A DNA stretch of 64,000 bases from Streptomyces spongiicola (GTDB taxonomy: Bacteria > Actinomycetota > Actinomycetes > Streptomycetales > Streptomycetaceae), in NCBI RefSeq assembly GCF_003122365.1, contig NZ_CP029254.1, positions 2,614,501 to 2,678,500 on the forward strand, given 5' to 3'. The notes under the pieces are model-generated. The model made no database searches. It was not told the DNA's origin and was given only the letters and a program-made list of their open reading frames with translations. Positions 19,816 to 22,652 of this stretch are shown one piece after another. Each line of letters begins with the position of its first letter. The stretch's first letter is position 1. A program made the translations under genes and the position numbers.

Positions 19816-21243
19816 TCAGGCCGTGCGGCGCAGCAGTGCCAGATACATGGCGTCCGTGCCGTGGAGATGCGGCCACAGCTGGACGTCCGGGCCGTCGCCC
19901 AGGGCCGGTACGCCCGGCATCAGAGGGCGGGCGTCGATCCACTCGGCCCGGACCGGCCCGTGCTCCCCGAGCACGTCGTCGACGACCGCGCGGGTCTCGG
20001 CGGGATGCGGCGAGCAGGTGGCGTAGCCGACCACTCCGCCGACCCGGACCGACTCCAGCGCCTCACGGAGCAGGGCCCGCTGGAGCGGGGCGAATCCGTC
20101 CAGGTCCTCGGGGCGCCGCCGCCAGCGTGCCTCGGGCCGGCGGCGGAGCGCGCCCAGGCCGGTGCAGGGCACGTCGACGAGGACGCGGTCGAAGGCGCCC
20201 GGTCGCCAGGCCGGGCGGGTACCGTCCGCGGTCACCACCTGGTACGGGCCGGGATTGCCCGCCAGCGCCCGCTCGACGAGACGGGCCCGGTGCGGCTGCT
20301 TCTCGGCGGCGACCAGGGCGGCACCGCGCTCGGCGGCCAGCGCGCCCAGCAGGGCCGCCTTGCCGCCGGGCCCCGCGCACCCGTCCAGCCAGCGCTCGTC
20401 CGGGCCGTCCAGCGGCGCTGCCGCGAGGGCGAGCGCCACGAGCTGGCTGCCCTCGTCCTGCACTCCCGCGCGCCCCTCCCGTACAGGGCCGAGGGCGCCC
20501 GGCTCACCGCCCTCGGCGAGCCTCACGGCGTACGGCGACCAGCGTCCGGGCAGCCCGCCGTCCGCACCGAGCAGCGAGAGCAGCTCGCCCGCGGTCGACC
20601 GGCCCGGCCTGGCGACCAGCGTCACCTCGGGCCGTTCGTTGTCGGCCTCCAGCAGGTCCTCGATCCCGGCCCGCCCGCCGCCCAGCGCGTCCCACAGGGC
20701 AGAGACGACCCAGCGGGGGTGCGAGTGGACGACGGCGAGGTGGTCCTCGGGGTCCTCGTCGTAGGGCGGCGCGACCCGTTCCAGCCAGCCGTCGAGGTCG
20801 TTCCGCGAGATCCGGCGCAGCACGGCGTTCACGAACTTCGCGCGGCCGTCGCCGAGGACGACCCGGGCCAGCTCGACGCTCGCGGACACCGCGGCGTGGG
20901 TCGGGATGCGCGTGCCGAGCAGTTGGTGCGTGCCCAGCGACAGTACGTCGAGGACCGGCGGGTCGACCTCGCGCAGCGGCCGGTCGACGCACTCGGCGAT
21001 GATCGCGTCGTAGGTGCCCTGCCGACGCAGCGTGCCGTACACCAGCTCCGTGGCGAGCGCCGCGTCCCGGCTGTCGAAGTCGCCCTGTTCACGGGCCCTG
21101 CGCAGCAGCGGGGGCAGGACGAGGTTGGCGTAGGCGTCGCGCTCGTCCACCGCCCGCAGTGCGTCGAAGGCGAGGATCCGCACGGGATCCTTCTTCGGGG
21201 GCCGGTAGGACTGGGAGGGACGGCGACGGCTCTGCTGGCTCAA
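19816..21243 (-). CDS. rsmB: 16S rRNA (cytosine-967-C5)-methyltransferase RsmB
   Basis: A 475-residue RsmB/NOP-family RNA m5C methyltransferase. The N-terminal NusB-like RNA-binding domain (about 20-150) contains RILAFDALRAVDERDAYANL, and the C-terminal SAM-dependent domain has DGCAGPGGKAALLG (SAM loop). The two catalytic cysteines lie in VDVPCTGLGALRR and YATCSPHPAET. It methylates C967 of 16S rRNA. The start appears to be TTG at 21243 with GGAG a few bases upstream. It follows fmt on the same strand after an unusual 476-base gap filled with CRISPR-like repeats. Confidence 0.93.
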   Translation of the reverse strand: MSQQSRRRPSQSYRPPKKDPVRILAFDALRAVDERDAYANLVLPPLLRRAREQGDFDSRDAALATELVYGTLRRQGTYDAIIAECVDRPLREVDPPVLDVLSLGTHQLLGTRIPTHAAVSASVELARVVLGDGRAKFVNAVLRRISRNDLDGWLERVAPPYDEDPEDHLAVVHSHPRWVVSALWDALGGGRAGIEDLLEADNERPEVTLVARPGRSTAGELLSLLGADGGLPGRWSPYAVRLAEGGEPGALGPVREGRAGVQDEGSQLVALALAAAPLDGPDERWLDGCAGPGGKAALLGALAAERGAALVAAEKQPHRARLVERALAGNPGPYQVVTADGTRPAWRPGAFDRVLVDVPCTGLGALRRRPEARWRRRPEDLDGFAPLQRALLREALESVRVGGVVGYATCSPHPAETRAVVDDVLGEHGPVRAEWIDARPLMPGVPALGDGPDVQLWPHLHGTDAMYLALLRRTA

Positions 21244-21315
21244 AGGTGCTCCGCGTTCCGGAAAGGTCGAACCCCCTCAGCCTACGACGCCCGGCCGGGC
21301 ACCCCGACCCGTCCC

Positions 21316-21715
21316 CGCCGCGCCCGGGTCCGCGGGGGCCCCCGGCCGAAGCAGGCCGCGTTGACTTCGCCGCGCCCGCGCCCTGCGCGCGGGTACGGCC
21401 CCTTGCTCGCCAGCTCGCGAGCCTCGGCGAGCTGCCGCGCCGCGCGCGCGGGGACGGACCGTGCAGGCCACGCAGGCTCGTCGCTGGACGTGTCGAAGAC
21501 GATGCCGCGCCCCGCGCACGGGGACGGCCCGGCTGCCCCGGGGCCCCGCCCGTCCCGACGGCCCCGCCGCGCCCGCCCGCGGGGACGGCCCACACGATGA
21601 GCGCCACGACGGCCGCCTCAGCGACCGCCGCGACCGCCCGCGGGGACGGCGCCTGGGCCGCTTCTCCGCGCCCTTGGAGGGCGGCCCCGCCGCGCCCCGC
21701 CCGCGGGGAGGGTGC
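21316..21715. CRISPR. Degenerate CRISPR-like array (type I-E-like), no cas genes
   Basis: Between rsmB and fmt, six GC-rich elements of about 29 bp recur at 21373, 21432, 21502, 21563, 21624 and 21687, with a weaker one at 21316. Spacings are 57, 59, 70, 61, 61 and 63. Each has the core GCGGGGACGG (or one to two changes) preceded by a dyad like CCCCGCnnGCGGGG, as in type I-E repeats, whose period is about 61. The sequences between them differ. Repeat identity is well below that of a live array, so this is a relic or a look-alike. No cas gene lies in the window. Confidence 0.45.
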
Positions 21716-21719
21716 GCGC

Positions 21720-22652
21720 TCAGGAGCCGAGCGTCTCCCCGGGGGCGATCCGCACACCGCGCGCCCAGTCGGCGGCCCGCATCGGCTTCCTGCCCTGCGG
21801 CTGGACCCAGTGGAGTTCGACTGCGTGCGAACCGGTCCCGGCGTGCACGTGGTTCTTGCCCACCGAGAGCTCCCCGGGTGCCAGCTCCGCGCGGTCCGGC
21901 AGCGGCTGGACGCCGACCAGCTTGAGGCGCTCGCCGCGGAACAGCGTCCACGCACCGGGCGCGGGAGTGCAGCCGCGGACGAGGCGGTCGATGTGGAGGG
22001 CCGGGGTGTGCCAGTCCACGTGCGCGTCCTCGACCGTGATCTTCGGTGCCAGGCTGACCCCGTCGGGGGGCTGCGGCACGGCCTCGAGGGAGCCCTCCTC
22101 GATCCCGTCCATGGTCGCGGACAGCAGCCCGGCTCCCGCGAAGGCGAGCCGGGTGAGCAGGTCGCCGCTGGTGTCCGTCGGCCGCACCCGCTCGGTGATC
22201 ACACCGTAGACCGGGCCGGAGTCCAGCCCCTCCTCGATCCGGAACGTGGAGGCTCCGGTCGTCTCGTCGCCCGCGAGGATCGCGTGCTGTACCGGGGCGG
22301 CGCCGCGCCAGGCGGGCAGCAGCGAGAAGTGCAGATTGACCCAGCCGCGGGACGGGATGTCCAGTGCCCGCTTGGGGAGCAGCGCGCCGTAGGCGACCAC
22401 GGGGCAGCAGTCCGGTGCGATCTCGCGCAGCCGGGCGAGGAACTCCTCGTCCCGCGGCCGCGCGGGCTTCAGGACCTCGATCCCCGCCTCCTGCGCCCGC
22501 TGGGCGACCGGGCTGGCCACCAGGCGGCGGCCGCGGCCGGCGGGGGCGTCGGGGCGGGTGACGACCGCCGCCACCTCGTGCCGGCCGGAGGCGATCAGGG
22601 CGTCCAGGGCGGGGACGGCGACCTCGGGGGTGCCCGCGAAGACAAGTTTCAA
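21720..22652 (-). CDS. fmt: Methionyl-tRNA formyltransferase
   Basis: A 310-residue enzyme that formylates initiator Met-tRNA using 10-formyl-tetrahydrofolate. The N-terminal Rossmann domain starts [15 protein letters not shown]; the active-site signature is [16 protein letters not shown] (about 104-119) with the catalytic Asp in [10 protein letters not shown]-terminal OB-like domain follows. The start is taken as TTG at 22652: homology begins at KLVFAGT, and GAGG lies 8 bases upstream; ATG starts farther up add residues foreign to the family. Length matches the family norm of about 310. Confidence 0.95.

Follow-up and report, generated by a model that had tools for sequence, protein, structure and literature searches.

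A putative ectopic CRISPR-like array between rsmB and fmt, and further spacer-sized repeat-insert units, in the Streptomyces spongiicola chromosome

Introduction

When type I-E Cas1-Cas2 acts at its own array, a 33-bp insert ends up flanked by duplicated 28-bp repeats. For integration away from arrays, Nivala, Shipman and Church reportedly pointed to a small number of natural candidates, found in Yersinia pestis and Sulfolobus islandicus. Off-target spacer integration has been described in vivo when Cas1-Cas2 was overexpressed in Escherichia coli (Nivala, Shipman & Church 2018, Nat Microbiol 3:310, as summarised in PMC11788318), and off-target Cas1-Cas2 integration also occurs in vitro (PMC10011333). 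The type I-E system of Streptomyces avermitilis inserts fragments of 33 bp (PMC4762764).

Here we analysed a 64,000-nucleotide stretch of the S. spongiicola chromosome, G000:C1:2614501-2678500 (the window), for which a preliminary description had proposed an eroded type I-E-like CRISPR array between the genes rsmB and fmt. Like the Streptomyces type I-E arrays of the host itself and of S. avermitilis, this locus has GC-rich repeats of about 28 nt, a 61-nt period in part of its length and mutually unrelated, coding-like spacers; unlike them, its repeats are degenerate with base differences in common, its spacers are irregular and its neighbours are fmt and rsmB, with no cas genes beside it. Two hallmarks of a canonical type I-E array, near-identical repeats and either adjacent cas genes or spacers with a convincing match in mobile elements, are absent. 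With neo-CRISPR loci, the window array and further sites in the same chromosome share spacer-sized inserts outside arrays, unrelated repeats that would stem from target duplication and a host with a type I-E adaptation module. In contrast to the E. coli overexpression loci, a single Streptomyces chromosome here holds several natural sites, and seven repeats, apparently decayed, make up the window array.

Results

The gap between rsmB and fmt (window positions 21244 to 21719) holds seven elements of about 28 nt that span positions 21316 to 21715 (Table 1), with the start region of rsmB on one side and the stop of fmt on the other, and both flanking genes are those named in the preliminary description. 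The elements all share only a core, GCCGCGCCC..CGCGGGGACGGCCC, and we recovered the same distances between their CGCGGGG cores as first described (57, 59 and 70 in one half of the array; 61, 61 and 63 in the other). The period is uneven, and two neighbouring spacings equal exactly the 61-nt period of the host type I-E arrays. Pairwise identity is low, as had been noted, running from about two thirds up to 96%, with z from 2.2 to 6.9 for element-against-element alignments; elements 3 and 4 are 90% identical across 29 nt. A chain search of the gap (K=26, spacing 55-72) found four copies, whereas 300 dinucleotide shuffles of the gap gave at most three, a number reached in 4 of the 300, and at K=24 a six-copy chain was found. 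The pattern thus withstands comparison with composition-matched shuffles.

Every element had also been credited with a CCCCGC..GCGGGG dyad. This dyad is perfect in element 7 and approximate in the others, and hairpins are no stronger than in the elements' own shuffles, element 2 excepted. Folding the whole gap as RNA revealed no surplus stability (z 0.19), and an Rfam search of the gap returned zero matches. A dispersed palindromic repeat of the REP/BIME kind can be set aside because element matches at one mismatch or fewer are confined to the gap, and a minisatellite or tandem repeat because the stretches between the elements are not repeated (spacer pair z near 0).

Table 1. Features of the rsmB-fmt region (window coordinates) and repeat-insert units elsewhere in the chromosome (G000:C1 coordinates; repeat + insert lengths in nt)
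Feature	Position	Strand	Remarks
rsmB	19816..21243	-	16S rRNA m5C967 methyltransferase; left neighbour
Element 1	21316..21342	+	most degenerate
S1	21343..21367		25 nt, codon-structured (z 1.9)
Element 2	21368..21401	+	6-7 nt longer; sole element with a significant hairpin
S2	21402..21432		31 nt (z 1.6)
Element 3	21433..21460	+	tied second-best window match to host I-E repeat, score 14
S3	21461..21502		42 nt (z 1.7)
Element 4	21503..21530	+	
S4	21531..21564		34 nt, 91% GC, no codon structure (z 0.0)
Element 5	21565..21591	+	matches element 6 at 25 of 26 nt; spacing exactly 61
S5	21592..21625		34 nt, strong codon structure (z 3.2)
Element 6	21626..21652	+	
S6	21653..21687		35 nt (z 1.25)
Element 7	21688..21715	+	top match to host I-E repeat in the 64-kb window, score 15.5
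fmt	21720..22640	-	methionyl-tRNA formyltransferase; right neighbour; start codon not fixed
Array, 28+33	G000:C1:4807679-4807828 (L291:7679-7828)		repeat GGGGCTCCCGCGTACGCGCGGGGATCCC; three repeats, two inserts; last repeat minus one base
Unit, 28+33+28	G000:C1:4948495-4948583 (L298:8495-8583)		single; repeat GGTGCGTCCGGGCGGGTGTGCGCGGACC
Exact 28+33	G000:C1:5080232		repeat AACGACCACGCGCGGCCGCGGGATCCGC
Row	G000:C1:5080107-5080320 (L266:107-320)		four repeats, three inserts, exact 61-nt spacing
Unit, 30+31	G000:C1:5080107		
Unit, 27+33	G000:C1:1076705		
Unit, 27+33	G000:C1:6028577		
Unit, 24+33	G000:C1:3517572		
Unit, 25+36	G000:C1:4870818		spacing 61
Repeat-insert-repeat unit	G000:C1:6029658		
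Repeat-insert-repeat unit	G000:C1:6091448		

The gap is also longer than usual, as had been suspected: with the first 54 nt of rsmB included it measures 530 nt against a median of 173.5 across 110 loci (range 87 to >1400 nt), and the 3 loci of the 110 with a longer gap owe this to other causes. Long gaps have several unrelated origins, among them apparent small genes and one transposase-like insertion. In S. dioscori (L086) and S. aurantiacus (L101) the gap carries tandem units of about 75 nt that bear the hairpin GGGGCGCGGGGAACTGCGCG. These are, like the window elements, GC-rich hairpin blocks repeated between fmt and rsmB, but they have a period of about 75 and the DNA between the blocks is duplicated too, which indicates tandem duplication there and not insertion.

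Such rapid turnover in the genus, with unrelated hairpin repeats in the same gap of two other species, would be in keeping with a GC-rich look-alike at the window locus, in which slippage or gene conversion multiplied hairpin-like GC-rich blocks, with no relation to CRISPR, in a gap that evolves fast. The 84% GC of the gap, the low repeat identity and the failure of the elements to fold better than shuffles fit this account as well. Shuffles do not reproduce the chain, however, and the stretches that separate the blocks in S. dioscori show evident homology, unlike those of the window array.

The six stretches between the elements (S1 to S6) provide a further point. They are mutually unrelated, as the preliminary description had it (15 pairwise alignments, z -1.5 to +2.0). 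When scored for codon usage, with a correction by shuffling every piece, they have a mean codon z of 1.60, compared with 1.53 for 129 true host spacers and 2.12 for coding 33-mers; the 169 noncoding 33-mers drawn from the corresponding gap of relatives average 0.18, and none of 5000 six-piece noncoding draws had a mean of at least 1.60. S4 is the exception among them. Along the array the signal is high in the stretches and low in the elements, and it switches strand and frame; the stretches thus resemble captured coding DNA, not a broken gene or intergenic filler, and a single decayed gene running through the array is rejected. Neither slippage nor filler DNA predicts unrelated, codon-structured stretches, and we consider a look-alike rather unlikely. 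Searches of phages and plasmids, proposed as a check in the preliminary description, and of viral contigs gave no convincing protospacer for S1 to S6, and the host genome's own CRISPR spacers gave zero matches to them.

A full set of type I-E effector and adaptation genes lies at 4.60-4.62 Mb of the 7.18-Mb host chromosome, 2 Mb from the window, with Cas1e and Cas2e (TIGR03638, TIGR01873), Cas5e, Cas6e, Cas7e and Cse1 all above family cut-offs. Its two big arrays contain 79 and 53 exact repeats of CTGCTCCCCGCACCCGCGGGGATGGTCC. Of the 129 inserts between these 28-nt repeats, 122 are 33 nt long, hence the 61-nt period, and 121 begin with C. When the 64-kb window was scanned with the host repeat on both strands, element 7 was the best match and element 3 tied for second; the element matches lie on the + strand, in the same orientation, with z up to 4.4. 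Scores as high were found in 2 of 1999 434-bp segments of the host genome and in none of the 159 GC-rich ones among them.

The resemblance to type I-E repeats is nevertheless partial. It lies mostly in the 3' half of the elements (CGCGGGGAYGGYCC), whereas the 5' half diverges, and an alignment without gaps leaves 8-10 of the 28 positions mismatched. Nearly all elements have ACGG where the host repeat has ATGG, and GCCGCGCCC stands against host CTGCTCCCC; the common ACGG-for-ATGG difference makes the elements unlike decayed copies of the present host repeat. In L226, from another Streptomyces, a true I-E array (repeat CTGCTCCCCGCGCACGCGGGGACGGACCC) has an ACGGACC variant, and the 3' half of its repeat is identical to that of element 3 (CGCGGGGACGGACC). 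Together with the I-E-like spacing and spacers, this identity would suit the decay of an ordinary I-E array whose repeat was a slight variant (like CCGCGCCCCGCGCGCGGGGACGGCCC) and which derived from an older or transferred system. Against such an origin, the element 5' halves do not fit I-E repeats, the locus is without cas genes, and an intact array with the window's repeat was found in none of 393 Streptomyces genomes. Two genomes with high element-match counts (G411 and G205) hold scattered chance matches, not arrays.

The preliminary description had proposed to look for intact arrays in the same gap of related genomes; the three closest, the sister species G384, G254 and G034 (rsmB-side flank identity 95, 93 and 92%), all lack an array there. 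Their gaps contain different GC-rich DNA that is unalignable with the array and so provide no clean empty site. Separately, two distinct Cse1 genes (G384:C4:274120 and G384:C5:107443) occur in G384, the closest relative, which thus probably has two I-E systems.

Segments of the host genome, sampled as a null for the chain search, returned the canonical arrays and also the row at 5080107-5080320, and direct repeats then proved to be in excess at spacing 60-61 and at insert length 33. The sample was afterwards enlarged by 0.8 Mb to 1.66 Mb in total. With a tighter screen to remove minisatellites (24-32-nt exact direct repeats, inserts of 20-60 nt), 6 of the 14 inserts across the 1.66 Mb measured exactly 33 nt (binomial p ~5e-7 under a uniform null, a significance somewhat inflated because the filters were chosen after a first look at the data). 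The 33-nt excess was already apparent before the second half of the sample, which contains the sites at 4807679 and 4948495, was added, and these two sites therefore represent a partial replication. No such 33-nt-insert units were found in 0.8 Mb of G254, a close relative without a Cse1 match, or in 0.75 Mb of a multi-species set. Host against both controls (1.55 Mb) gives 6 versus 0, about 0.02 from the base ratio and of nominal significance only, so that the within-genome peak in insert length is the main evidence.

The three exact 28+33 sites have repeats unrelated to one another. The array at 4807679 lies 190 kb from the canonical arrays, and its repeat is similar to the host I-E repeat. 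The row at 5080107-5080320 occupies an intergenic gap upstream of an ispH-like gene; it has an unrelated repeat, with repeats 1 and 2 identical, repeats 3 and 4 identical, and a short indel separating the two pairs. A further six units (1076705, 6028577, 6029658, 3517572, 4870818 and 6091448) have spacings of 57-61 and unrelated repeats, and in some of them the exact repeats are longer or shorter than 28 nt. At the window array there is no exact 28+33 repeat pair, the inserts being 25-42 nt and the repeats differing by up to about one third; its nearest approach is the pair of elements 5 and 6, with 1 of 26 nt mismatched at a spacing of 61.

The unit at 4948495 is flanked by a gene beginning MSLYAAYAGNLD and an NAD(P)H-oxidoreductase-like gene. 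Translated, its insert gives PGSEEYLDSE, which is part of the maltosyltransferase GlgE (glgE), and it has Streptomyces plasmid homologues at 94% over 32 nt (E 4e-5); searches of phages, plasmids and viral contigs with the other ectopic inserts yielded no source, glgE being the sole match. The G384 genome covers this region in one continuous alignment, with 1401 query bases against 1341, i.e. 60 fewer, and judging from this alignment it apparently carries the empty site. Ectopic inserts have a mean codon z of 1.85 and ectopic repeats one of 0.49. Two features of the ectopic sites fit integration poorly: the inserts show no PAM-base signature, with no preference for an initial C, unlike canonical inserts, and the dyad excess of the repeats over GC-matched DNA is marginal (p 0.045 and 0.12).

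Chain hits in four other segments (L252, L256, L265 and L280) were tandem or higher-order repeats and not simple insertions. In L280, at G000:C1:1512427-1513000 (L280:12427-13000), 24-nt blocks CCGCCACCGCACACCCGCGAGAGG stand 61-69 nt apart with three different intervening stretches, and this set of 194 nt is triplicated as a whole. Within the window, positions 2597-2720 contain three copies of a 56-nt tandem repeat, CCGCGGCGGGCCCGGTCACCCACTGC.

Discussion

In summary, we favour the reading that the window array is an old ectopic mini-CRISPR, produced by off-target integration by host Cas1-Cas2 and then decayed, and put its probability slightly above one half; a CRISPR-like origin of some kind, all versions taken together, is probable. 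We suggest that the host I-E Cas1-Cas2, which normally adds 33-bp fragments beside 28-bp repeats at 4.60-4.62 Mb, would have acted off-target and placed pieces of coding DNA in a GC-rich site that separates fmt from rsmB. Every insertion would duplicate about 28 bp of the target, giving a repeat-insert-repeat structure, and retargeting of the new repeat copy would let the row grow to six inserts. Repeats that may once have been identical would later have decayed through substitutions and small indels. The array is probably non-functional, because its repeats are too divergent for uniform processing.

Much of the preliminary description stands, in that the array is I-E-like in size, spacing and spacers, the host has a type I-E system, and the elements are the best likeness to its repeat in 64 kb. 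A plain eroded canonical array is the part that we would give up. The common differences from the host repeat, the absence of the array in three sister species, the lack of an intact array in 393 genomes and the presence of other 28+33 arrays with unrelated repeats in the host genome favour ectopic integration, and make erosion of an ordinary array improbable. Leaky integration by the host's own module would be the simplest account, with the window array as an older, repeatedly targeted case beside fresh 28+33 sites.

The genome-wide 28+33 signal is a stronger and more interesting result than the window array. About 9-10 candidate ectopic mini-arrays are counted in 1.7 Mb, which would mean perhaps 40 genome-wide. 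We see an even chance that leaky I-E Cas1-Cas2 deposits pieces of coding DNA, both self and foreign, in GC-rich intergenic sites, so that new intergenic DNA and nascent CRISPR loci would repeatedly arise from it in nature, the fmt-rsmB array being an advanced multi-spacer case.

This kind of event is known from E. coli, and many natural cases in one Streptomyces appear to be new. If the proposal is true, off-target Cas1-Cas2 integration happens in nature at an appreciable rate, and the target preference of a native integrase would be readable from genomes. How new CRISPR loci originate, and what adaptation costs in mutations, could then be tested directly.
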